Source: Gemmatimonadaceae bacterium
GTDB taxonomy: Bacteria; Gemmatimonadota; Gemmatimonadetes; Gemmatimonadales; Gemmatimonadaceae
Length of the DNA: 64,000 nucleotides
Assembly: GCA_011525845.1 (NCBI GenBank)
Contig: WYBP01000017.1
Location: 62,001-126,000, forward strand
Direction: 5' to 3'
The notes beneath the pieces are model-generated. The model ran no database searches and was not told the origin of the DNA. It saw only the letters and a list, made by a program, of their open reading frames with translations. The translations under genes were made by a program, and so were the position numbers. Shown here piece after piece: positions 44,580-57,353 of the stretch (position 1 is its first letter; every line of letters begins with the position of its first letter).

Positions 44580-44608
44580 TCGATACGAGTCCGTGACGTG
44601 GCCGAGGC
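44580..44608. promoter_or_regulatory. Weak 11-bp-spaced CCGT-type repeat between divergent operons
   Basis: TCGATAC (44580-44586), CCGTGAC (44591-44597) and CCGAGGC (44602-44608) are spaced exactly 11 bp apart. They lie in the shared upstream region of the nucleotidase operon and the udk-phoB-phoR genes. Only the middle unit matches well the repeats found at 47786 and 50674, so the site is tentative. Confidence 0.25.
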
Positions 44609-44679: not shown

Positions 44680-45306
44680 GTGAAGCCCCTCATCATCGGC
44701 ATCGCCGGCGGGACGGGGTCCGGGAAGTCCACGGTCGCGCGCAGCATCGCCGACTCGCTGGTCGACGCGCAGGTCGCCTTCCTCGACATGGACGCGTACT
44801 ACCGCGACCACCGGCACCTCTCGATGGAGGAGCGCCGGCGCGTGAACTGGGACCACCCCGACGCCTTCGACCTGGCGCTGCTCGCGAGTCACCTCGAGGC
44901 GCTCGCGCGCGGCGAGGCCGTGGACAAGCCGGTCTATGACTTCGTCTCGCACCTCCGGGCGCCGGAGACGGTGCGCGTCGAGCCCGCGGACGTGATCGTC
45001 CTCGACGGGATCCTGCTCCTCGTGGACGCGCGCGTGCGGCTGGCGTGCGACGTGAAGGTGTTCGTGGACACCGACGCCGACATCCGGCTCATCCGCCGCA
45101 TCCGGCGGGACATGATGGTGCGCGGGCGGCCCCTCGAGGAGATCCTCGACCAGTACCTCCATACGGTGCAGCCGATGCACCTGCAGTTCGTCGAGCCGAG
45201 CAAGCGGTACGCGGACCTCGTCATCCCCCGCGGGGGAGAGAACACGGTCGCGATCGACCTCCTCTTGGCGTCGATCGCGCGGCGGCTGCACGTCGGCGCG
45301 CCATGA
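44680..45306 (+). CDS. udk: Uridine kinase
   Basis: A 208-residue P-loop kinase with Walker A GIAGGTGSGKST, the substrate region FLDMDAYYRDHRHLSMEERRR then NWDHPDAFDLALL, VLDGILLLVDARVR and the lid arginines RRIRRDMMVRGR. It phosphorylates uridine and cytidine in salvage. The GTG at 44680 gives the family length. The phoB-like gene begins 10 nt after its stop. Confidence 0.94.
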   Translation: MKPLIIGIAGGTGSGKSTVARSIADSLVDAQVAFLDMDAYYRDHRHLSMEERRRVNWDHPDAFDLALLASHLEALARGEAVDKPVYDFVSHLRAPETVRVEPADVIVLDGILLLVDARVRLACDVKVFVDTDADIRLIRRIRRDMMVRGRPLEEILDQYLHTVQPMHLQFVEPSKRYADLVIPRGGENTVAIDLLLASIARRLHVGAP

Positions 45307-45316
45307 GGGGCCCGCG

Positions 45317-46027
45317 ATGAGCGCGGCGGAGGGCGCGCGGATCCTCGTCGTGGACGACGAGCCGGACATCGTCGCGCTCGTGGTCTACCACCTCGCGAAG
45401 GCGGGCTACCGCGTCGCGACCGCGACGTCGGGTCCCGACGCGATCCAGCTGGCCAGGCGCGACCGGCCCGCGCTCATCGTGCTCGACCTGATGCTCCCCG
45501 GCCTCTCGGGGTTCGACGTCCTCGCCCAGCTGCGCGAGGACGCGCGGACCGCCCACGTGGCGGTGCTGATGCTCACCGCCCGCAAGGACGAGCCGGACCG
45601 CATCAAGGGGCTCCAGCTCGGCGCGGACGACTACCTCACCAAGCCATTCAGCCCGCAGGAGCTCGTGCTGCGCGTCGGCGCCATCCTCCGGCGCGTCGCG
45701 AGCGCGGACCAGACCTCCGACGTGCTGCGCGTCGGGCCGCTCGAGATCGACCGCACCGCGCACCAGGTGACGGTGAACGACCACGAGGTGGAGCTCACGC
45801 CCACCGAGTTCAAGCTGCTGCTCATCCTCGCCGAGCGGCGCGGGCGCGTGCAGGCCCGGGCCCACCTGCTCGAGACGGTGTGGGAGGCGGCCCCCGACAT
45901 CCAGACGCGCACGGTGGACATGCACATCCAGCGCCTGCGCACCAAGCTCCATCCGGCGGGCGACCTGATCGAGACGGTGCGCGGCTTCGGCTACCGCCTG
46001 AAGGCCGCGGACGCCGGAGCCGCGTGA
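45317..46027 (+). CDS. phoB: OmpR/PhoB-family response regulator
   Basis: A 236-residue regulator. The receiver domain has ILVVDDEPDIVAL, phospho-acceptor Asp57 (LIVLDLMLPGLSGFDVL) and Lys in YLTKPFSP. The winged-helix domain covers about 130-230 (HEVELTPTEFKLLLILAERRGR and TRTVDMHIQRLRTKL). The PhoB assignment rests on its PhoR-like partner and on the phosphate genes around it, not on sequence alone. Its stop overlaps the kinase GTG (GTGA). Confidence 0.88.
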   Translation: MSAAEGARILVVDDEPDIVALVVYHLAKAGYRVATATSGPDAIQLARRDRPALIVLDLMLPGLSGFDVLAQLREDARTAHVAVLMLTARKDEPDRIKGLQLGADDYLTKPFSPQELVLRVGAILRRVASADQTSDVLRVGPLEIDRTAHQVTVNDHEVELTPTEFKLLLILAERRGRVQARAHLLETVWEAAPDIQTRTVDMHIQRLRTKLHPAGDLIETVRGFGYRLKAADAGAA

Positions 46028-47736
46028 GACTCACGCAGCGGCTGCTGCTCGGCGCGTTCCTCGTCGTCGGGTTCCTGGCCGTCTTCATCGTCGCGCTCGT
46101 GGACCGGCAGCTCGGCACGCGGCTCCGCGAGGACGCGGTCACCTTCCTCGAGCGCGAGGCCGTGCTGGTCGGCGTCTCCTGGGCGCGCGAGACCCTGCAC
46201 CCGGATTCCCTGGCGGACCGCGCCGGTGAGGCGCTGGGGCGACGCGTGACGCTCATCCGCACGGACGGGGTCGTCGTGGGTGACGCGGCGTTCGACGGCG
46301 ATGCGCTCGCGGCCCTGCAGAACCACGCCGCGCGACCGGAGGTCGTCGCCGCGCTCGCCGGGGAGGTCGGGACGGCGCGACGCGCGTCGATCTCGACGGG
46401 CGCCACGGAACTCTACGTGGCGGTCCCCGTCCGCGGCCTCGGCGTCGCCCGCGTCTCCCTGCCGACGGCGGGCCTCGACGGGACCATCCGCAGCGCGCGG
46501 CAGGAGGTGCTCCTGGGCGTCCTCGTGGCCCTCGCCCTCGCGCTCCTGCTCGCGCTGCTCTTCTCCCGCGCCGTCTCGCGCCCCGTCGAGGAGTTGCGGG
46601 ACGTCGCGCAGGCGCTGGCCGACGGCGACCTCACGCGCCGGCCGGTGCTCCACGCCCCCGGCGAGGTCGGGGAGCTCGCCGCGGCCCTGCGCTCGCTCGC
46701 CGAGCAGCTCTCGGCCCGCCTCCGCGCGCTCGAGGCGGAGGAGGCGCTGCTCTCCCAGCTGATCGAGTCGCGCAACGAGGCCGTCATCGCGGTGGACACC
46801 GCGCAACGCGTGGTGCGCATGAACGAGACGGCGCGGCGCCTGCTCGACGTCCGCGAGCCCCTTCCCTTCCCGGTGGACCTCCTCCCGCGCGACGTCGCCC
46901 TCCGCGACGCACTCCTCACCGCGTTCGCGGGCGGCCTCACCGAGAGCGCCGAGGTGGAGATCGGCGGGCGCACCCTGACGGTGACGGCCCGGCCCCTCGC
47001 CGACGGCGGCGCGGTGCTCGCGCTCTTCGACCTCACCACCGTGCGGCGCCTCGAGGCGGTGCGGCGCGACTTCGTCGCCAACGTCTCGCACGAGCTGCGC
47101 ACCCCCCTCACCGTCATCGGCGGGTTCGCGGAGACGCTGCAGGCCGACGACATCCCGCCGACCGACCGCCGGGAGTTCGCGAGCCGGATCCTCGGGAACA
47201 CCCAGCGCATGCAGCGGATCGTGGACGACCTCCTCGACCTCTCCCGCATCGAGTCGGGGGGGTGGGTCCCGAACCCGGGGATGGTCGACCTCGGCGCCGT
47301 CGCGGCCGACGTGCTCGCCGCGGCGCGCGACGCGGCGGGCGCGAAGGGACTCACGCTCGCGGCGGAGATCGCGCGCGACGCGGGGACGGTCTACGCGGAC
47401 GCGACCGCGCTGCGGCAGGTGCTCGGCAACCTCGTGGACAACGGCGTGCGGCACACGCCGAGCGGGAGCGTGACGCTCTTCTCGGAGCGCGATCCGCGCG
47501 GCGTCCGGATCGGTGTTCGGGACACCGGCGTGGGCATCGCGCCGGCGCACCTCTCGCGCATCTTCGAGCGCTTCTACCGCGTGGATCCGGGGCGGTCGCG
47601 CGAACAGGGGGGCACGGGACTCGGGCTCGCGATCGTGCGCCACCTGGTGGAGGCGCACGGCGGCCGTGTCACGGCCGAGAGCGCGCTCGGAAGGGGCACG
47701 ACGATCACCGTGTTCTTCCCCTCGCGGAAGGCCTGA
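46024..47736 (+). CDS. phoR: PhoR-like membrane sensor histidine kinase
   Basis: A 570-residue kinase with transmembrane helix 1 (about 7-26), a periplasmic sensor of about 130 residues, helix 2 (161-182), HAMP (182-234) and PAS (about 240-335). The HisKA domain carries His356 (VANVSHELRTPLTVIGG), and the HATPase domain has VLGNLVDNGVRHT, DTGVGIAP and GGTGLGLAIV. The sizeable periplasmic domain resembles gram-positive PhoR rather than the minimal E. coli protein. It forms a GTGA overlap with the regulator gene. A PhoR role is inferred from context. Confidence 0.88.
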   Translation: MRLTQRLLLGAFLVVGFLAVFIVALVDRQLGTRLREDAVTFLEREAVLVGVSWARETLHPDSLADRAGEALGRRVTLIRTDGVVVGDAAFDGDALAALQNHAARPEVVAALAGEVGTARRASISTGATELYVAVPVRGLGVARVSLPTAGLDGTIRSARQEVLLGVLVALALALLLALLFSRAVSRPVEELRDVAQALADGDLTRRPVLHAPGEVGELAAALRSLAEQLSARLRALEAEEALLSQLIESRNEAVIAVDTAQRVVRMNETARRLLDVREPLPFPVDLLPRDVALRDALLTAFAGGLTESAEVEIGGRTLTVTARPLADGGAVLALFDLTTVRRLEAVRRDFVANVSHELRTPLTVIGGFAETLQADDIPPTDRREFASRILGNTQRMQRIVDDLLDLSRIESGGWVPNPGMVDLGAVAADVLAAARDAAGAKGLTLAAEIARDAGTVYADATALRQVLGNLVDNGVRHTPSGSVTLFSERDPRGVRIGVRDTGVGIAPAHLSRIFERFYRVDPGRSREQGGTGLGLAIVRHLVEAHGGRVTAESALGRGTTITVFFPSRKA

Positions 47737-47785: not shown

Positions 47786-47825
47786 CCGTTACATCGCCGT
47801 TGCACGTCCGTCGCCGGGCCGGTAC
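47786..47825 (+). promoter_or_regulatory. Four 11-bp-spaced direct repeats (Pho-box-like)
   Basis: CCGTTAC (47786), CCGTTGC (47797), CCGTCGC (47808) and CCGGTAC (47819) are each separated by exactly 4 bp, a period of 11. OmpR/PhoB regulators bind tandem direct repeats with this period (E. coli Pho box: CTGTCAT repeats 11 bp apart). The array lies between phoR and the TonB receptor gene. The last unit is also part of the palindrome CCGGTACCGG. No convincing -10 box was found downstream. Confidence 0.55.
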
Positions 47826-47906
47826 CGGACGGACGGAAGTTCGTGGGTGTTCGCCGCACGCTCCGGGGCGGACCCGACCCTTGAGACTTCCGCTGCCGAG
47901 GTACCC

Positions 47907-50669
47907 ATGAGACTCCACCTGCTCGCCGCGCTCGTCCTCCTCTCCGCGCCTCTGGCCGCTCAGGAGCCACCCCAGACCGGCCGCATCACCGGCCGCATCA
48001 TCGATGCCGCGACGGGCGCGGGACTCCCCGATGCCGGCATCCAGGTCGTCGGCACCGCGCTCGGTGCGAGTGCGGGAGTGGACGGCCGGTACACCCTGGT
48101 CGGCGTCGCCGCAGGGCAGGTCACCGTGCTGGTACGCCGACTCGGCTACGCTCCCAAGACCGTGACCGGCGTGACCGTCTCGTCCGGTCAGTCGGTCGCG
48201 ATGGACGTCGCGCTCTCGAGTGCGGAGGTGCGCCTGAGCGCACAGGTCGTGACCGCCGAGGCCGAGCGCGGGTCGGTGAGCTCGGCACTCGACCGGCAGC
48301 GGACGTCGGTGAACGTCGTGAGCGGGATCACCGCGGAGCAGATCTCACGCAGCCCGGACGGCGACGCCGCCCAGGCGGTCGGACGGGTCGCAGGGGTGAG
48401 CGTGCAGGACGGCAAGTACGTGTTCGTCCGCGGGCTCGGGGACCGCTACACCCAGACCTCGCTCGACGGGGCGCGCATCCCGAGCCCGGAGCCCGAGAAG
48501 AAGGTCGTGCCTCTCGATCTCTTCCCGACCGGGCTCCTGCAGTCCATCACCACGGTGAAGACCTTCACCCCCGATCAGCCGGGGGACTTCTCCGGCGCGC
48601 AGGTCGAGATCCAGACCAAGGAGTTCCCCGCCCAGCGCGCGTGGACGATGAGCACCAGCACGGGGACGTCCGAGCACGCGTTCGGCACGCGCGTCCCGAT
48701 GCCGCGCCGCGTCTCGGGCGACCTGCTCGCCGCCGGGGCCGGGGCGCGCTCGCTCCCCGGGATCGTGCACCAGTTCGGCAACTTCTCGACCTCGCTGCCG
48801 GGGCAGTCCGACTACAACCGGATGGTCGCGTCGTTCCGCAACTCCTGGACCCCGCGTGACGAGTCTGGGGGCGTGAACGGCTCCACGTCGTTCTCGGTGG
48901 GCGGGAACGACCCCGTGCGCGGGCACCGCATCGGCTACCTGGTGTCGGGCACGTACGCCTTCACGCAGGAGGCACGCCTCGACCAGGTGCGCGCCCTCGC
49001 GCTCGCGCAGGGGGGCGCCACGGCCTCGGAGGTGGATCGGTTCGAGGGCACCACCGGGAAGGAGAGCGTCCTCTGGGGCGGGCTGGCGAACCTCAGCACG
49101 CTCGTCGGCACGCGTACGCGCCTCGCGCTCAACACCACCTACAACCGCACCATGGACTCCGAGGCCCGCTCCGAGCGCGGCCTCTCGGAGAACCTCGGGA
49201 TCCCCCTCCAGCTCTCCCGCCAGCGCTACGTCGAACGGAGTGTGCGCTCCTCGCAGTTGATCCTCGAGAGCAGCCTGAGCGGCTCCCAGGACCTCGAGCT
49301 GGCCATCAGCGCCTCGGGCGTCTCGCGCCTCGAGCCCGACCGTTCGGAGTTCGTGCAGGCGATCTTCACCGACCCCTCCACGGGCGCCGAGCTGGCGCCG
49401 CAGTGGTTCTCCTCGTCCAACGAGGGCGCCGTGCGCAGCTTCGGCGAGCTTCGTGAGGACGCCTACGAGGCGCGCGGCCACTACCGCATCCGGTTCGGCG
49501 ACGCCGGCCGCACGATCGCGCTCAAGCTCGGCGGCCTCGGCCGCCGCGGCCACCGCAACGCGACCAGCACCTCGTACAGCATCAGCGCAGCGGGACTCGG
49601 ACAGTCCGAACGCGAGCTCGACGCCGAGTCCATCTTCGACGGCCGCTACACGGCACCGGGCGACGCGGTATGGAACGTGACACCGCTGGGCGCGGGCGGC
49701 TCGTACACGGCGACGGAGTACCTCGTCGCCGGGTTCACGATGCTCCAGGCCGACTTCGGTGCGCGCTGGCAACTGATCGGTGGGGCCCGCGCCGAGTACT
49801 CGGACGTGCTCGTGCGCGCGCAGCCGACGATCGGTGCGCTCTCCACGACCAATCCGACCTATACGGACGTCCTGCCGGCGCTGGCGCTCACCTTCCGGCC
49901 CTCCCCGGACGTGGCGATCCGGCTCTCCGCGTCGCAGACGCTCTCCCGCCCGGAGTACCGCGAGCTCGCGCCGATCCAGTACCGCGAGGTGCTCGGCTTC
50001 GACAACGTGCTCGGCAACCCGGACCTCCGGCGCGCCCTCGTGCAGAACTACGACGCGCGGTGGGAGTGGTACCCGCGGATGGGTGAGGTCTTCAGCGTGG
50101 CCGCGTTCGTGAAGCGCTTCTCGGATCCCATCGAGCGCGTCTACCGCGGCTCGTCCGGCACGCGGATCATCACCTTCGTGAACGCACTGGGCGCCGACAA
50201 CGTCGGCGTCGAGGTGGAGGGGCGGAAGTCCCTCGGCTTCCTCGGCGACCGCCTCGAGAACCTGACGCTCTCCGCGAACGCGACCGTGATGCGGAGCGAG
50301 ATCCGGATCGCCGGGAGCTCGCTCGCCGTGACGAACGGCCAGCGGCGGATGGTGGGCCAGGCGCCGTACGTCGTCAACACCGGGCTCACCTGGACCTCGT
50401 TCACGGGCGCCGGGTCCGCGACCCTGCTGTACAACGTGGTCGGGCCCCGGATCACCGACGCGGGTGAGGTCCCGCTCCCGGACGTGATCGAGCGGGAGCG
50501 GCACGTGGTGGACCTCTCGTTCCGCTTCCCCGTTGCGAGCTGGCTCTCCGCCCGCGTGGACGCGAAGAACCTGCTGGACGCACCGTACCGGCTGGAGCAG
50601 GGCCCGGTGACACGGGAGCGCTATCGCGTGGGACGCGGCTTCACCGTGGGACTCAGCTGGCAGCCCTGA
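47907..50669 (+). CDS. TonB-dependent receptor with carboxypeptidase-like N-terminal domain
   Basis: A 920-residue outer-membrane receptor with a signal peptide (MRLHLLAALVLLSAPLAAQ). A carboxypeptidase-regulatory-like domain (about 25-105, TGRIIDAATGAGLPDAGIQV) precedes the plug (AQAVGRVAGVSVQDGKYVFV, then RGLGDRYTQTSLDGARIP) and a barrel ending in RVGRGFTVGLSWQP. It belongs to the non-SusC receptor type without a SusD partner. The ligand is unknown. Position after phoBR, behind a Pho-box-like array and before phosphate genes suggests uptake of a phosphorus compound. Confidence 0.93.
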   Translation: MRLHLLAALVLLSAPLAAQEPPQTGRITGRIIDAATGAGLPDAGIQVVGTALGASAGVDGRYTLVGVAAGQVTVLVRRLGYAPKTVTGVTVSSGQSVAMDVALSSAEVRLSAQVVTAEAERGSVSSALDRQRTSVNVVSGITAEQISRSPDGDAAQAVGRVAGVSVQDGKYVFVRGLGDRYTQTSLDGARIPSPEPEKKVVPLDLFPTGLLQSITTVKTFTPDQPGDFSGAQVEIQTKEFPAQRAWTMSTSTGTSEHAFGTRVPMPRRVSGDLLAAGAGARSLPGIVHQFGNFSTSLPGQSDYNRMVASFRNSWTPRDESGGVNGSTSFSVGGNDPVRGHRIGYLVSGTYAFTQEARLDQVRALALAQGGATASEVDRFEGTTGKESVLWGGLANLSTLVGTRTRLALNTTYNRTMDSEARSERGLSENLGIPLQLSRQRYVERSVRSSQLILESSLSGSQDLELAISASGVSRLEPDRSEFVQAIFTDPSTGAELAPQWFSSSNEGAVRSFGELREDAYEARGHYRIRFGDAGRTIALKLGGLGRRGHRNATSTSYSISAAGLGQSERELDAESIFDGRYTAPGDAVWNVTPLGAGGSYTATEYLVAGFTMLQADFGARWQLIGGARAEYSDVLVRAQPTIGALSTTNPTYTDVLPALALTFRPSPDVAIRLSASQTLSRPEYRELAPIQYREVLGFDNVLGNPDLRRALVQNYDARWEWYPRMGEVFSVAAFVKRFSDPIERVYRGSSGTRIITFVNALGADNVGVEVEGRKSLGFLGDRLENLTLSANATVMRSEIRIAGSSLAVTNGQRRMVGQAPYVVNTGLTWTSFTGAGSATLLYNVVGPRITDAGEVPLPDVIERERHVVDLSFRFPVASWLSARVDAKNLLDAPYRLEQGPVTRERYRVGRGFTVGLSWQP

Positions 50670-50673
50670 GCAC

Positions 50674-50691
50674 CCGTGACCCTTCCGTGAC
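50674..50691 (+). promoter_or_regulatory. Two identical 11-bp-spaced repeats (Pho-box-like)
   Basis: CCGTGAC occurs at 50674-50680 and again at 50685-50691, separated by CCTT, the same 7+4 layout as the array at 47786. It follows the receptor stop and precedes a hairpin and the lipoprotein gene at 50781. Confidence 0.45.
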
Positions 50692-50696
50692 CGGAA

Positions 50697-50730
50697 CGCC
50701 GCCGTGTGGAGACACGGCGGCGCTTTCGTT
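50697..50730 (+). terminator. Hairpin terminator or attenuator after the receptor gene
   Basis: A perfect 11-bp stem (50697-50707 with 50712-50722) closes a GGAG loop and is followed by CTTTCGTT. It probably ends or attenuates the receptor transcript before the lipoprotein gene. Confidence 0.7.
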
Positions 50731-50780: not shown

Positions 50781-52196
50781 ATGTTCGCTTCCTTCCGCGC
50801 ACGCGCCATCGGCGCCGGCGCCCTCGCCCTCACCGCCCTGACGGGATGCAATGACGTGGGCGGCACCACCGGCGTGATCCCGCCGGGCGACGCGGTGATC
50901 GCGAGCAACATCACCGCGAACCGCACCCTTTTCCGAGACACGGTCTACACGATCCGCGGCTTCATCCAGGTCACCAACGGCGCGGTGCTGACGATCCAGT
51001 CGGGCACCGTGATCCAGGGCGACTTCGCCACGGTCGGCTCGTCACTCTTCATCACGCGCGGCGCGCGGATCGAGGCGCTGGGCACTGCCGCCGCCCCGAT
51101 CGTCTTCACCTCGTCACGCCCCGCCGGCCAGCGCCAGGCGGGGGACTGGGGCGGGCTCATCATCATCGGGAACGGGATCATCAACCGCGCGGCGCCGGTG
51201 GTGCTCGAGGGCACGGGCACCGGGCCGGACAACCCGACGCAGGAGTACAGCGGCGGCACCAACAACGCCGACAACAGCGGCACCCTGCGCTACGTGCGGA
51301 TCGAGTTCGCGGGCTACGCGACGGCGGCCGACCAGGAGCTCAACTCGCTCACGCTCGCCGCGGTCGGCAGCGGCACGACGATGGAGTACGTCCAGACGAT
51401 GTACGGACTCGACGACAGCTTCGAGTTCTTCGGCGGCGCGGTGGACGGGAAGTACCTCGTCTCGTACGAGTCCGGCGACGACCACTTCGACATGTCCGAG
51501 GGGTACGTCGGGCGCCTCCAGTACCTCATCGCGTATCAGAGCGCGAAGGTGACGGTGCGCCCGGGCGCGGGCAACGCCTCGAACGACCCGCAGGGGATCG
51601 AGAACGACGGCTGCGCGGGGACCGGCTGCGCCCTCGGACAGAACTCCACGCCGTTCACCACGCCGGTGGTCGCGAACTTCACGCTCGTCGGCACCGGCCC
51701 CGGCACCGACGTCGACCCCACCTCCGGCGGCTACGGCGCCGTCCTCCGGCGCGGCACCGGCGGCTACTACGTGAACGGCGTGATCGCACGCTGGCCAAAG
51801 GGCGCGTTCGGACTCCGTGACGCCGCCACGCAGACGCGCATCACCGACGGGGTCTTCGACGCCCGGAACATCCTCGCGGTGGAGACGCCCGCCCTCTTCA
51901 CCACCGCGTCGAGCGGCTTCGTGCTCGCCGACTCCGCAGCGCGGAACATCATCCGGGACGGGGCCGCCACCACGGCGTCGCTCTTCACGACCTTCACGAT
52001 GCCGGCCACCACGGCCGCCTCGTTCGACTGGACCCCGACCGCCGGTTCGCTCGCGGCGTCGGGCGGCTTGGCCACCTTCACGGGGAACATGGCCACCGCG
52101 GCCGGTACCTTCGTGAGCGGCACGGCGTACCGCGGCGCGGCCGCGCCCGGCGGCACCAAGTGGTGGCTCGGGTGGACCAGCTACGCCAAGAGCTGA
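50781..52196 (+). CDS. Beta-rich lipoprotein downstream of the TonB receptor
   Basis: A 471-residue lipoprotein (lipobox LTGC). The sequence is rich in Gly, Thr, Asn and short beta strands: SNITANRTLFRDTVYTIRG, GAVLTIQSGTVIQG, DWGGLIIIGNGIIN and YVRIEFAGYA. This is the look of a right-handed parallel beta-helix. A Cys pair sits in ENDGCAGTGCALG. I cannot name a family; similar proteins accompany TonB receptors in Bacteroidota-like genomes. It would sit on the cell surface and might bind or process the receptor's ligand. The next gene overlaps its stop codon. Confidence 0.72.
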   Translation: MFASFRARAIGAGALALTALTGCNDVGGTTGVIPPGDAVIASNITANRTLFRDTVYTIRGFIQVTNGAVLTIQSGTVIQGDFATVGSSLFITRGARIEALGTAAAPIVFTSSRPAGQRQAGDWGGLIIIGNGIINRAAPVVLEGTGTGPDNPTQEYSGGTNNADNSGTLRYVRIEFAGYATAADQELNSLTLAAVGSGTTMEYVQTMYGLDDSFEFFGGAVDGKYLVSYESGDDHFDMSEGYVGRLQYLIAYQSAKVTVRPGAGNASNDPQGIENDGCAGTGCALGQNSTPFTTPVVANFTLVGTGPGTDVDPTSGGYGAVLRRGTGGYYVNGVIARWPKGAFGLRDAATQTRITDGVFDARNILAVETPALFTTASSGFVLADSAARNIIRDGAATTASLFTTFTMPATTAASFDWTPTAGSLAASGGLATFTGNMATAAGTFVSGTAYRGAAAPGGTKWWLGWTSYAKS

Positions 52197-52843
52197 TGAC
52201 CCGCCGATGGTCCCCTCCGCGCGCGGTGCGCCGGGGGGCGCTCGCGGTGTCGCTGGGCCTCCTCGTCACGGTGCTCACCACGATCCCCGACGCCTGCGCG
52301 GCAGGGGATCGCGGTGCAGCGGCGCCCGCCGCGGGCGGCGTGGTGGACAGCGCCCTCCCGATCGCCGTTCTCCTCGAACGCTTCCGCCGCGCCACGCCGG
52401 AGACGCTCACCACGCTCACCGGGGGCGCCGACACCCCGGAGCGCCTCGCCCGCACGCTCCTCTCCGCAGTCGCCGCGCACGACACCGCCGGTGTGCGCGC
52501 GCTGGTGCTCTCGCGCGCCGAGTTCGCCTGGCTCTACTATCCGCACACGCGGTTCGTGGCACCGCCCTACGAGCTGGGGCCGGAGCTCGCCTGGCTCACG
52601 CACGCGGCGGAGAGCGGGAAGGGGGAGCGACGCCTGCTCGCGCGGTTCGGCGGACACGCCCTCGGCTTCGTCGCACTCGACTGTCCCGGGTCGATCACCG
52701 ACGAGGGACCGAACCGCGTGATCGGCGGCTGCGAGATGCGGTTCACCGATGGGGCCGAGTCGCCGCGCCCGCTGCGCCTCTTCGGTGCGTTGCTCTATCG
52801 GGACGGGCGGTACAAGTTCCTGAGCTACGTCAACGACTTGTGA
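52196..52843 (+). CDS. Secreted protein of unknown function
   Basis: A 215-residue protein with a basic N-terminus and hydrophobic signal (GALAVSLGLLVTVLTTIPDACA). The mature part has a helix-turn pattern (TPERLARTLLSAVAAHDTAGVRALVLSRAEFAWLYYP) reminiscent of NTF2-like or DUF4440-type folds, and two cysteines (ALDCPG and IGGCEM). No enzyme motif is visible. The ATG shares a base with the lipoprotein stop (TGATG), and the exopolyphosphatase gene follows closely, so it belongs to the same operon. Confidence 0.65.
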   Translation: MTRRWSPPRAVRRGALAVSLGLLVTVLTTIPDACAAGDRGAAAPAAGGVVDSALPIAVLLERFRRATPETLTTLTGGADTPERLARTLLSAVAAHDTAGVRALVLSRAEFAWLYYPHTRFVAPPYELGPELAWLTHAAESGKGERRLLARFGGHALGFVALDCPGSITDEGPNRVIGGCEMRFTDGAESPRPLRLFGALLYRDGRYKFLSYVNDL

Positions 52844-52862
52844 CCGCATGGAGGTGGACGCG

Positions 52863-54470
52863 ATGGGGGCGATGCGCGCGAGCGAGGGACCGTACCGCCC
52901 CGCGCGTGACGATCGCGACCTCCGCATCGCGGCCGTGGACATCGGCTCCAACTCCATCCGCCAGATCGTCGCCGACGTCTTCCCCGACGGCGAGATCCGG
53001 ATCGTGGACGAGATGAAGGCCGCCCCGCGCCTCGGGGCCGGCGTCACCGAGACCGGGGCGCTCGGCGAGAGGCACATGGACGAGGCCGTCGCCGCCCTCA
53101 CGCGCATGGCCACGCTCGCCCGGCAGATCGGCGCCAAGCGGATCGAGGTCGTGGCCACCAGCGCCGTGCGCGACGCATCGAACGGAAGCGCCTTCCTCAC
53201 CCGCGTGCGGAAGGAGACGGGCCTCAAGGCCCGCGTGCTCGTGGGGCAGGAGGAGGCGCGCCTCGCGTTCCGCTCCGCGCTGGCGCACTTCGAGCTCGGC
53301 CGCGGCCGCTCGGTCGTGATGGACATCGGCGGCGGGTCGCTCGAGCTGGCGCTCGCCGCCGAGGGGCTGGTCGAGCGCCTGATGACCTTCCCGTTCGGGG
53401 CCATCCGCATGACCGAGCGCTTCCTCACCGACCGGCCCGCCGAGAAGGGGGTGCGGAAGCTCCGCAAGCACGTGCGCGCCGCGCTCACCAAGGCGATCCC
53501 CGTGCGCGACTGGCGCGGTGCGGAGGTCATCGGCTCGGGCGGCACCTTCACGAACCTCGCGGGGATGTACCTCGAGCGGCAGGGGATCAAGGTGCGCAGC
53601 GTGCACGGCACGCGCATCCCGCGCGCCGACGTGGAGCACATCCTCGAGCAGCTCACGTCCATGACGGTCGAGGAGCGCCTCGGCGTGCCGGGGCTCAACG
53701 CGGGGCGCGCGGACATCATCGTCGCCGGCCTCGCCGTGGCCGCGGAGGTGCTCGCGCGCGTGGAACCGCGCGAGCTCGCGGCCTCCGCGTTCGGCATCCG
53801 CGAGGGGATGCTGCTGGAATCCGCCCGGGTGATGCCGGTGATCGCCGACCCCGGCGAGGCGCGCGCGCGTTCGGTGCTCGCCTTCGCCGAGCGCTGCCAC
53901 TTCGAGGCCCCGCACGCCCGCCAGGTGCAGACGCTGGCGCTCCAGCTCTTCGACTCGCTCGGGGCACGGCTGGGGTGCGACCCCGCCGACCGCCAGACCC
54001 TCTCGGACGCGGCGCTGCTGCACGACGTGGGCTACCACATCAACTACGAGCGCCACCACAAGCACTCGTTCCACCTCATCCAGCACGCCGACCTGCTCGG
54101 CATCGCGCCGGACGAGCAGATCGTCATCGCGCACGTGGCACGCTACCACCGGGGGCGGGAGCCGCGCCGCAAGCACGAGCTCTGGTGGGCGCTCGACCGC
54201 GACGCGCGGGAGCGCATCCGCCGGCTCAGCGCGATCCTCCGCGTGGCCGACGGCTTCGACCGCGGGCACGCGAGCGCGGTGGAGCGCCTCAAGGTGCGGT
54301 GGCTCAAGCGCGCGCTCCGCATCACGCCGGAGCCGCGGCGCGCGAACGGCAACCTGCGCCTCGAGCTCTGGGGGGCCAACCGCAAGGCCGCCCTCCTCGC
54401 CGAGATGGCGGGCACGCCGGTGGAGATCGTGGGACCCGACGGGAAGCCCGTGAGCGAGGACGAGACATGA
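52863..54470 (+). CDS. ppx: Ppx/GppA exopolyphosphatase with HD domain
   Basis: A 535-residue enzyme. The actin-like Ppx/GppA domain (about 20-320) has AAVDIGSNSIRQIVADV, VVATSAVRDASNG, VLVGQEEARLAF and VMDIGGGSLELALA. A C-terminal HD domain follows (ALLHDVGYHINYERHHKHS, then RVADGFDRGHA). It removes phosphate from polyphosphate ends or pppGpp. The ATG at 52863 has GGAGG 8 nt upstream; an in-frame ATG at 52848 is possible but lacks a ribosome-binding site. Together with ppk1 nearby it completes a polyphosphate cycle. Confidence 0.93.
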   Translation: MGAMRASEGPYRPARDDRDLRIAAVDIGSNSIRQIVADVFPDGEIRIVDEMKAAPRLGAGVTETGALGERHMDEAVAALTRMATLARQIGAKRIEVVATSAVRDASNGSAFLTRVRKETGLKARVLVGQEEARLAFRSALAHFELGRGRSVVMDIGGGSLELALAAEGLVERLMTFPFGAIRMTERFLTDRPAEKGVRKLRKHVRAALTKAIPVRDWRGAEVIGSGGTFTNLAGMYLERQGIKVRSVHGTRIPRADVEHILEQLTSMTVEERLGVPGLNAGRADIIVAGLAVAAEVLARVEPRELAASAFGIREGMLLESARVMPVIADPGEARARSVLAFAERCHFEAPHARQVQTLALQLFDSLGARLGCDPADRQTLSDAALLHDVGYHINYERHHKHSFHLIQHADLLGIAPDEQIVIAHVARYHRGREPRRKHELWWALDRDARERIRRLSAILRVADGFDRGHASAVERLKVRWLKRALRITPEPRRANGNLRLELWGANRKAALLAEMAGTPVEIVGPDGKPVSEDET

Positions 54471-54483
54471 GGACGCACCCCTG

Positions 54484-55251
54484 ATGGCGAACGACCACCC
54501 GGCGATCCGCTTCGCCCTCCTCTCCGACGTGCACGCCAACCTGCACGCCCTCGACGCCGTCCTCGCCCACATCACGGCGCGCGGCGACATCGACGCGCGC
54601 TACCACCTGGGCGACCTCGTCGGGTACTCGGCCTTCCCCAACGAGGTGGTCGCGCGCCTCGCCGAGGAGGGGATCGCCGGGGTCTCGGGGAACTACGACA
54701 CCACGGTCGCGCATGGGTACAAGCACTGCGGGTGCCGGTCGGAGAACCCCGAGCAGGAGGCGCTGGCCCACATCAGCTTCGAGTGGACCTGCCGCGCCGT
54801 CACCACCGCGACGCGGCGCGCACTCGCCTCACTCCCCTTCCGGCTCGACCTCCGGCCCCTCGGCGGGCATGTCGCGGGACCGACTCTGGTGCTCCTCCAC
54901 GCGACGCCGGCGAGCAACCTCGTCTACGTGACCGAGGACCGGAGCGACGACTTCCTGCGGAAGATGGCGGCGCAGGCCGGGGTGCGCGCGGGGGACGTGA
55001 TCGCGTTCGGCCACACGCACAAGCCCTGGTCGCGCACCGTGGACGGCGTGCTCTTCGTGAACACCGGCTCGGTGGGCCGCCCCAAGGATGGCGACCCGCG
55101 GGCCGCCTACGTCGTGCTCGACTTCTCGGCCGCGCCGCCCACGGCGACGATCGTGCGCGTGCCCTACGACGTGATGGCGGCGAAGGCGGCGCTGGAGGAG
55201 GGGGGCCTGCCCGGCGCCTTCGGGTTGGTGTTGGAGAGCGGGCTGGCCTGA
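54484..55251 (+). CDS. Metallophosphoesterase
   Basis: A 255-residue calcineurin-like phosphoesterase with all metal motifs: LLSDVHANLHAL, HLGDLVGYSAFPNEVV, GVSGNYDTTVA, LVLLHATPAS and VIAFGHTHKPW followed by NTGSVGRPKDG. Family members hydrolyse nucleotides, phosphodiesters or phosphoproteins; the substrate is unknown. It lies 13 nt after ppx. A four-Cys stretch (KHCGCR, EWTCR) is unusual for the family. The last 88 bp overlap the 3' end of the convergent ppk1 gene. Confidence 0.9.
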   Translation: MANDHPAIRFALLSDVHANLHALDAVLAHITARGDIDARYHLGDLVGYSAFPNEVVARLAEEGIAGVSGNYDTTVAHGYKHCGCRSENPEQEALAHISFEWTCRAVTTATRRALASLPFRLDLRPLGGHVAGPTLVLLHATPASNLVYVTEDRSDDFLRKMAAQAGVRAGDVIAFGHTHKPWSRTVDGVLFVNTGSVGRPKDGDPRAAYVVLDFSAAPPTATIVRVPYDVMAAKAALEEGGLPGAFGLVLESGLA

Positions 55252-57353
55252 ACCGGGAAGATCCCGCTCTCGCGGCTCGCGCCCCACGAGTCGCGGAGCA
55301 GCATCCGGTGCGTGGCCCGCTCCCCATGCTCCCCGGGGTGGCGCTGCACGTAGCTCCCGTCGGGCTGGAGGTCCCACGCCTGGCGGTTGTCCTGCAGGCA
55401 GACCTCGAGGATCCCCTGCAGCCGCGCCTGGAGCTCGGGCTTGTCCACCGGCGCGACGACCTCCACGCGGCGGTCGAAGTTGCGCGGCATCCAGTCGGCG
55501 GAGCCGAAGTAGTACTCCGGCGCGCCGTCGTTCCCGAACATCCAGATCCGCGAGTGCTCGAGGAAGCGCCCGATGATGCTGATCACCCGGATCTTGTCCG
55601 AGAGCCCCCAGACGCCGGGGCGCAGGCAGCAGACCCCGCGGACGATGAGATCCACCTCGACGCCGGCCGTGGAGGCGCGGTAGAGCGCGTCGATGCACTC
55701 GGAGTCGACGAGCGAGTTCATCTTCGCGATGATCCGACCGGGGCGGCCCGCCACCGCGTGCGTCGTCTCGCGGTCGATCAGGGCGAGCACCCGCTCGCGC
55801 ATGTTGACCGGGGCGACGAGGAGGCGGCGGTAGTCGGCGCGACGGGAGTAGCCCGTGAGCGAGTTGAAGAGGTCGCTGATGTCGGCGCCGATCGCCTCGT
55901 CGCAGGTGAGGAGCCCGATGTCCGTGTAGATGCGCGCGGTGCGCGTGTTGTAGTTCCCGGTCCCCACATGCACGTAGCGCCGGATCCCCTCCGGCTCCTT
56001 GCGCACCACGAGCGCGGTCTTGGTGTGCGTCTTGAGCCCCGGCAGCCCGTACACGACATGCACGCCGAACGACTCGAGCGTGCGCGCCCAGGCGATGTTG
56101 TTCACCTCGTCGAAGCGCGCCTGCAGCTCCACCAGCACCGCCACCTGCTTCCCGCGCTGCGCGGCCTGGGTGAGCGCCTGCACGATCGCGCCGTCGCCCG
56201 AGGTGCGGTAGAGCGTCATCTTGATCGCGAGCACGTGCTCGTCGCGCGCCGCGCTCTCGATGAAGGTCTCCACCGAGGCGCCGAAGGAGTCGAAGGGGTG
56301 GTGCACGAGCACGTCCTTCTCCCGGATCACCTCGAAGATCGAGCGGTTGGCGTCGCGGAGCTCGGCCGGCACCACGGCGATCAGCGGCGGGTCCCGGTGC
56401 TCGGGGATGTCGATCGCGCTGAGCGAGAGGAGGTCGCCCACGTCGAGCAGCGGGCCCGGCTCGAGGATCTCGCGGTCGGTCAGCGGCGCCATCTCCGGCG
56501 CCTCGCTCGCCCGCAGCTCCTCGAGCAGCAGCTCGCGCAGGTGCGCCGGCATCCCGCTCTGCACCTCCACCCGCACCACCTCGCCGAAGCGCCGCTGGAA
56601 GAGCTGCTCCTCGATGGTCGCGAGCAGGTCCTCCGGCTCCTCCGTGTGCGAGATCTCGAGGTCCGAGTAGCGCGTGAGCCGGAAGAGGTGGCTGCCGAGG
56701 ATCTCCATCCCCGGGAAGAGCGCATCCAGCCGCTCGGCGATGAGCGCCTCGAGCGGCACGTACGAGTGCGGACGGCCGGTCGGCACCCAGCGCGGCAGGC
56801 TCTTCGGCACCTTCACCCGCGCGAAGCGCACGTCCCCGCGCTCCGGGTCCCGCAGCTCCACCGCGAGCGAGAGCGAGAGGTTGGAGATGTACGGGAAGGG
56901 GTGCCCGGGATCCACCGCGAGCGGGGTGAGCACGGGGTACACCTGCCCCTCGAAGAAGGCGTCGAGGCGCGTGCGCTCGTCCTCCTCCAGCTCGTGCACG
57001 CCCAGGAGGCGGACCCCGATCCCGCGCAGTTCGGGGAGGAGCACCTCGTGCAGGCAGTGCCGCGCGCGTTCCAGCAGGGCGCGCACCCGCTCGTCGATCA
57101 GCGCCAGCTGCTCGGCCGGCGTGAGCCCGTCCGGCGGCGCCTGCAGCACCCCCGCCGAGAGCTGCCGCCGGAGGCCGGCCACGCGCACCATGTAGAACTC
57201 GTCCAGGTTCGACGCGAAGATCGCCAGGAACTTGAGCCGCTCCAGGAGGGGCGTCCGCTCGTCCTCCGCCTCGTGCAGCACGCGCGAGTCGAACTCGAGC
57301 CAGGAGAGCTCGCGGTTCAGGAACGCCGGGTTCTTCGAGACGAGCGGGTTCAC
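55164..57353 (-). CDS. ppk1: Polyphosphate kinase 1
   Basis: A 729-residue PPK1 beginning NPAFLNRELSWLEFDSRVL, FLAIFASNLDEFYMVRV. The core has LVHHPFDSFGASVETFIESA, MTLYRTSGDGAIVQALTQAA, VELQARFDEVNNI and the phospho-histidine region YGLPGLKTHTKTALV. The second phospholipase-D-like half has FLEHSRIWMFGN and YYFGSADWMPRN. It makes polyphosphate from ATP at the membrane. About 35 C-terminal residues beyond the usual end are encoded opposite the metallophosphoesterase gene. The GTG start lies 4 nt after the PiT stop. Confidence 0.95.
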   Translation of the reverse strand: MNPLVSKNPAFLNRELSWLEFDSRVLHEAEDERTPLLERLKFLAIFASNLDEFYMVRVAGLRRQLSAGVLQAPPDGLTPAEQLALIDERVRALLERARHCLHEVLLPELRGIGVRLLGVHELEEDERTRLDAFFEGQVYPVLTPLAVDPGHPFPYISNLSLSLAVELRDPERGDVRFARVKVPKSLPRWVPTGRPHSYVPLEALIAERLDALFPGMEILGSHLFRLTRYSDLEISHTEEPEDLLATIEEQLFQRRFGEVVRVEVQSGMPAHLRELLLEELRASEAPEMAPLTDREILEPGPLLDVGDLLSLSAIDIPEHRDPPLIAVVPAELRDANRSIFEVIREKDVLVHHPFDSFGASVETFIESAARDEHVLAIKMTLYRTSGDGAIVQALTQAAQRGKQVAVLVELQARFDEVNNIAWARTLESFGVHVVYGLPGLKTHTKTALVVRKEPEGIRRYVHVGTGNYNTRTARIYTDIGLLTCDEAIGADISDLFNSLTGYSRRADYRRLLVAPVNMRERVLALIDRETTHAVAGRPGRIIAKMNSLVDSECIDALYRASTAGVEVDLIVRGVCCLRPGVWGLSDKIRVISIIGRFLEHSRIWMFGNDGAPEYYFGSADWMPRNFDRRVEVVAPVDKPELQARLQGILEVCLQDNRQAWDLQPDGSYVQRHPGEHGERATHRMLLRDSWGASRESGIFPVQASPLSNTNPKAPGRPPSSSAAFAAITS

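Follow-up and report, generated by a model that had tools for sequence, protein, structure and literature searches.

Arrays of 7-bp direct repeats in 11-bp phase accompany a phoBR gene cluster in a Gemmatimonadaceae bacterium and are, with a probability that we put at roughly 0.92, Pho boxes, head-to-tail repeats to which dimers of the neighbouring PhoB would bind. The window, the whole 64,000-nucleotide stretch of DNA that was analysed (C12:62001-126000), comes from a 3.58-Mb genome that is 99.8% complete and has a G+C content of 71%. From position 44680 it encodes udk, phoB, phoR, a TonB-dependent receptor, a lipoprotein, the gene at 52160, ppx and a metallophosphoesterase in this order, with ppk1 on the other strand (Table 1). 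The array upstream of the receptor gene reads CCGTTAC-atcg-CCGTTGC-acgt-CCGTCGC-cggg-CCGGTAC and is in exact 11-bp phase. The array before udk reads TCGATAC-gagt-CCGTGAC-gtgg-CCGAGGC and consists of a pair (44580-44597) and a third unit (44602-44608). The first-pass annotation had described both of these, the latter as a weaker version, together with two CCGTGAC units of 7+4 spacing at 50674-50691, and all three are present in that form. Its remark that the core differs from CTGTCAT also holds, the unit being YCGTKAC / YCGTTRC and not the E. coli core.

Table 1. Operators, promoter elements and genes of the phoBR region, in window coordinates.
Feature	Position	Strand	Basis
Pho-box-like array before udk-phoBR	44580..44608	+	Third-best window site, score 15.1; pair kept in relatives
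udk, uridine kinase, first gene of phoBR operon	44680..45306	+	NF004018 above cut-off; PF00485
PhoB-like response regulator, OmpR/PhoB family	45317..46027	+	Top NCBIfam model TIGR02154 PhoB; recognition helix
PhoR/PnpS-like sensor histidine kinase	46024..47736	+	HAMP, HisKA, HATPase_c domains
Four-unit putative Pho box array	47786..47825	+	Best window site, score 22.2; footprint kept in 46 loci; period-11 test
Units of the four-unit array	47786-47792, 47797-47803, 47808-47814, 47819-47825	+	
-10-like element GAAGTT, 10 bp past unit 4	47836..47841	+	Conservation of A at +51 and T at +55, 46 loci
TonB-dependent receptor, carboxypeptidase-like N-terminal domain	47907..50669	+	PF00593, PF07715, PF13620; TIGR01782 under cut-off
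Putative Pho box of lipoprotein gene, CCGTGAC-cctt-CCGTGAC	50674..50691	+	Second-best window site, score 21.3
Receptor-gene terminator hairpin, 11-bp stem, 4-nt loop	50697..50722	+	Terminator scan; fold z -2.5
Expected -10 position of lipoprotein promoter, TTTCGT; also terminator T tract	50724..50729	+	Phase +50 to +55; inferred
Lipoprotein, lipobox LTGC, right-handed beta-helix, receptor partner	50781..52196	+	Synteny in three phyla; structure model
Protein without known family	52160..52843	+	Follows lipoprotein in Gemmatimonadota (synteny)
Ppx/GppA exopolyphosphatase	52848..54470	+	PF02541
Polyphosphate kinase 1 (ppk1)	55164..57353	-	TIGR03705 above cut-off

The window contains two matches to CCGTKRC-N4-CCGTKRC, compared to a mean of 0.03 in 100 dinucleotide-preserving shuffles, none of which has two, and the four-unit array, found once in the window, appears in none of the 100. 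Four bare CCG triplets in phase occur once in the window and 0.58 times in shuffles, a difference that is not significant, and the signal therefore resides in the full 7-bp unit. In-phase CCG triplets, equally common in shuffles, were discarded as a signal; the shuffle comparison proposed in the first-pass annotation thus upholds the complete unit and not the phase of CCG alone. Across the 3.58-Mb genome the pattern has four matches, and the two beyond the window both lie within coding frames. A scoring matrix built from 77 sites of relatives, with the window excluded and no udk site included, ranks the receptor array first, the lipoprotein pair second and the udk array third among window sites. 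Matrix peaks in shuffled windows range from 10 to 19, and because its score falls within this range the udk array is not significant alone.

The 11-bp period is recovered at the receptor gene when no motif is assumed. From 80 loci encoding a relative of the window receptor, we counted 7-bp direct repeats with at most one mismatch, period by period, in the 280 bp upstream of the receptor gene. Of 55 Gemmatimonadota regions, 41 contain such a repeat at period 11, compared to a mean of 17.9 and a maximum of 26 in shuffles. None of the periods 7-10 and 12-21 rises above the largest shuffle, period 23 does so by one, and periods 22 and 33 do so as expected for an array of up to four units. A non-redundant set gives the same picture, with period 11 in 31 of 42 regions against 13.1 in shuffles (maximum of 100 sets: 20); periods 8-10 and 12-14 stay within the shuffle maximum. 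In the 160 bp downstream of the receptor gene, 34 of 59 loci contain period-11 repeats (9.8 when shuffled); a few other periods slightly top the largest of 20 shuffles there, far less than period 11 does. The words underlying the signal are CCGTTAC, CCGTGAC, CCGTTGC and TCGTGAC, and the best pair consensus from relatives is YCGTKAC-N4-YCGTTRC. The window arrays likewise comprise at least two 7-bp units separated by 4-bp spacers at a period of 11 bp. Upstream of six Acidobacteriota homologues, period-11 repeats are not above chance. A separate observation concerns the loci L066-L084 from Mucilaginibacter, Pedobacter and one Rhodothermales, where 12 of 14 loci show receptor-upstream period-11 repeats (shuffles 6.3, maximum 9), often with words of the NTGTTAA or CTAACAT type; these may represent the Pho box of the Bacteroidota concerned.

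The receptor promoters share an extended architecture in which the box is followed by a -10-like element. When aligned on the box, 46 of them yield YCGTKAC-N4-YCGTTRC-N4-CCGTNGG-N4-CCGRNAC-N10-GANNNT. Counting the first base of the box as 0, position +51 is A in 93% and position +55 is T in 89% of loci. In both receptor and pst promoters the proximal unit pair ends at +39 and the -10-like element spans +50 to +55. When 18 pst promoters are aligned by the box only, 16 have T at +55, a phase shared with the receptor promoters (binomial p of 5e-11 at a background of 0.17, an optimistic value as some sequences are related). The proximal unit and the -10-like element are thus separated by 10 bp, the spacing to the -10 element reported for the E. 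coli Pho box (PMC1906773). Because their conservation differs, units 1 and 2 would represent a stronger distal box and units 3 and 4 a weaker proximal one. A search for sigma-70 consensus promoters found none, as would follow if PhoB takes the place of the -35 element.

Boxes of this type are also located at pst genes. In the source genome the pst operon, found on another contig, carries CCGTGAC-N4-CCGTCAC-N4-CCGTTAC upstream of its first, porin-like gene, and the pstS-pstC gap contains TCGTGAC-N4-CCGTTAC with a score of 22.9. The letter class CCGTKRC of the first-pass annotation finds the window arrays and is slightly narrow, K omitting the CCGTCAC of this promoter. Relaxed to YCGTNRC-N4-YCGTNRC, the pattern has 37 matches in the genome versus 9 for the reversed control; among the 30 of 37 inspected, those that clearly lie between genes, ahead of a gene and on its strand, are the pst and window sites, and three further matches were labelled intergenic by a simple gene finder. 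A near-palindromic pair, GTCACGGCGACGTGACGG, lies just before a putative lipoprotein gene elsewhere in the same genome (L088:1501-1518, C3:360828) with the box on the opposite strand, and is probably due to chance.

With a box defined by a score of at least 15 within 380 bp upstream, the family's 27 pstS loci include 18 that possess one on the same strand and 4 with one on the opposite strand, compared to 2 of 108 gene-body control windows. In the order-level sister family another gene precedes pstS, and a box is located before the porin-pstS operon, 1.2-1.5 kb ahead of PstS, in 9 of the 11 loci whose flank is complete. The enrichment at phosphate genes that had been suggested as a check is therefore observed in the genome's own pst sites, in the family and in the sister family. 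Box cases were also found in the class-level families f4, f5 and f6 and weakly in f7; several pst loci among those scanned have no box, and none is present in the loci of f9, the deepest family sampled. The period test on outgroup pst regions gave an excess at multiples of three, arising from coding sequence in the stretches. Taken together, the sites appear to reach across at least the class Gemmatimonadetes; the family and order show them clearly, and they are present in some class-level families. The earlier proposal of a Pho box for the phylum stands to this extent, the box not being seen in the few deepest genomes sampled.

As a genome-wide detector, the bare two-unit pattern was too noisy and was dropped: over 59 genomes it has 183 matches against 92 for the reversed control, an only about twofold excess, and many single matches are therefore chance. 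We followed 20 strong matches in other genomes, picked by site score before their neighbours were read, to the gene behind them. Where this gene could be assigned, it is mainly a pstC-like permease (three), a receptor (two), the lipoprotein (two) or ppx (one), and several of the 20 are not explained by the next gene. The box precedes a ppx gene in one relative. In two genomes of one genus (L256 and L257) the gene behind a strong box encodes a lipoprotein that combines SdrD B-like and DUF5689 domains, a candidate new regulon member.

The regulator encoded in the window resembles PhoB where DNA would be contacted. It scores 247.7 bits against TIGR02154, under the cut-off of 296.2, and the best models of the adjacent kinase, PnpS, WalK and PhoR, all score under their cut-offs as well. 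The regulator is 42% identical to E. coli PhoB, with the recognition helix RTVDMHIQRLRTKL compared to RTVDVHIRRLRKAL in E. coli, and conserves helix and wing residues in R193, T194, D196, H198, R201, R203, T217 and R219. The helix changes are V197M and R200Q, the latter residue being Q in nearly all close relatives. A different core despite a near-identical helix fits the report that Pho box cores differ between species and that CTGTCAT is not defining (PMC4415409). Upstream of udk, a pair, mostly YCGATAC-N4-YCGTGAC, is conserved in 17 of 17 syntenic relatives at 78 to 130 bp from the start of the udk match, and is the second-best site in one of them (L062). This conservation indicates that the weak array before udk is real, and autoregulation of phoBR through this putative box is the natural reading.

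Three other explanations have to be weighed against Pho boxes. The repeats could be a product of chance in a genome this rich in G+C, as the frequency of in-phase CCG in shuffles might suggest, but shuffles do not match the full units, and dozens of divergent loci keep the footprint at a period of 11 and at multiples of it, a conservation that refutes chance and leaves it a negligible probability. The arrays could also be operators of another OmpR/PhoB-family regulator, for example of a second phosphate or envelope-stress system, with the neighbouring PhoB reading a different site. Regulators of this family are known to bind direct repeats of similar spacing (PMC4832192), the unit differs from that of E. 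coli and the regulator falls under the PhoB equivalog cut-off; however, the box precedes phoBR itself and pst, the core of every Pho regulon, and the neighbouring regulator retains the PhoB recognition helix, which makes a different reader improbable.

The remaining alternative concerns only the lipoprotein pair, which could be a piece of the receptor terminator and no promoter element. A strong hairpin followed by a T tract begins 5 bp after the box and sits in the lipoprotein promoter's spacer; close relatives have the same hairpin. Relatives without a hairpin at this place nevertheless still have the pair, and the genome-wide pattern finds the pair ahead of lipoprotein genes in other genomes, so that we consider this explanation slightly less probable even than a different reader. 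If the pair is a Pho box, the T tract falls where the -10 element is expected; T is found at +55 in 78% of lipoprotein promoters (45 loci), and a transcript starting past 50729 would omit the hairpin.

The receptor and lipoprotein genes adjoin in relatives from Gemmatimonadota, Acidobacteriota and Bacteroidota. The structure model of the lipoprotein (pLDDT 86.5) matches pectate-lyase-type right-handed beta-helices, including the pectate lyase Pel9A (1ru4) with a probability of 0.98 and low TM-scores. No Rfam family was found in the receptor-lipoprotein region. The long gap between the two genes in distant relatives was considered as a small gene or RNA, which was ruled out in two loci where the lipoprotein starts earlier. 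In distant relatives (L014:7877-9613, L018:7764-9602) the lipoprotein carries an extra N-terminal domain of fibronectin-like look that is absent from the window protein. Close relatives encode a PstS (PF12849) between the homologue of the 52160 gene and ppx (L005:10025-11128, L006:10054-11154); in the window these two genes abut (52843-52848) with no pstS between them, and the sole pstS found is on another contig. A wider and tentative reading, to which we give somewhat less than even odds, is that the receptor-lipoprotein pair represents a PhoB-controlled outer-membrane phosphorus uptake system common to the three phyla, with the operator re-coded in each. The lipoprotein promoter of Gemmatimonadota would then be folded around the receptor terminator, a single stretch ending one transcript and starting the next only under phosphate limitation.

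From these sequence features we infer PhoB binding, activation and a phosphate response of the arrays. Under phosphate limitation, PhoR would phosphorylate PhoB. The latter would have strong occupancy of the distal pair (YCGTKAC-N4-YCGTTRC) and weaker occupancy of the proximal pair, whose end lies 10 bp before the -10 element. Bound PhoB would substitute for the -35 element and recruit RNA polymerase as in E. coli. The three window operators would serve udk-phoB-phoR, the receptor gene and the downstream lipoprotein gene, and would constitute the Pho regulon together with the boxes at the pst genes outside the window.

Gemmatimonadota are widespread in soil and freshwater and are represented by very few cultures, and their type species is a polyphosphate accumulator. 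The kind of site is well known, and what is apparently new is the operator sequence and its reach in this phylum. Our literature search, conducted mostly without subscription journals, found no paper naming Gemmatimonadetes with a Pho box, and the consulted passages of an ecogenomic survey of the phylum mention PhoR-PhoB and pstSCAB and no operator (PMC10581226). The operator matrix makes the Pho regulon readable from many Gemmatimonadota metagenome-assembled genomes and already connects phosphate acquisition with a TonB receptor and a beta-helix surface lipoprotein. With its differences at R200 and V197, the PhoB helix also offers a clean way to test how a G+C-rich core is read.

The closest known counterpart of the arrays is the E. 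coli PhoB box (CTGTCAT-N4-CTGTCAT), which shares the 7+4 direct repeats, the 11-bp period, the 10 bp to the -10 element, the location before pst and phoB and a near-identical PhoB recognition helix. In contrast, the Gemmatimonadota unit matches CTGTCAT at C1, G3, T4 and A6 only, arrays often contain four units with the better-conserved pair in the distal position, and PhoB possesses Q at R200 and M at V197. The boxes of Streptomyces coelicolor PhoP (GTTCACC) and cyanobacterial SphR (CTTAACCT) have different cores, and similarly combine a lineage-specific core with an 11-bp repeat and often more than two units.

The receptor-lipoprotein pair has counterparts in two other systems. In PUSIV of Flavobacterium johnsoniae (receptor Fjoh_0545, lipoprotein FII Fjoh_0546), phoBR likewise lies beside a receptor and a pectin-lyase-type lipoprotein, and phosphate depletion strongly raises the expression of these two genes of the cluster, by log2 fold changes of 8.0 and 9.9 (PMC8115612). 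PUSIV belongs to another phylum, that report names no Pho box, and the window links udk, ppx and ppk as well. Our homology comparison of the window pair covered the Bacteroidota pairs related to Fjoh_0546. The Caulobacter lipoprotein ElpS (CC0170) is made under phosphate starvation and adjoins the TonB receptor CC0171 (PMC2996285); unlike the window lipoprotein, it is encoded beside a type II secretion operon and not beside phoBR, and its receptor was reported to be constitutive. The window genes are adjacent and the predicted model of the lipoprotein adopts a pectin-lyase-type fold, and by analogy the pair is most likely the Gemmatimonadota form of the PUSIV and ElpS pairs.
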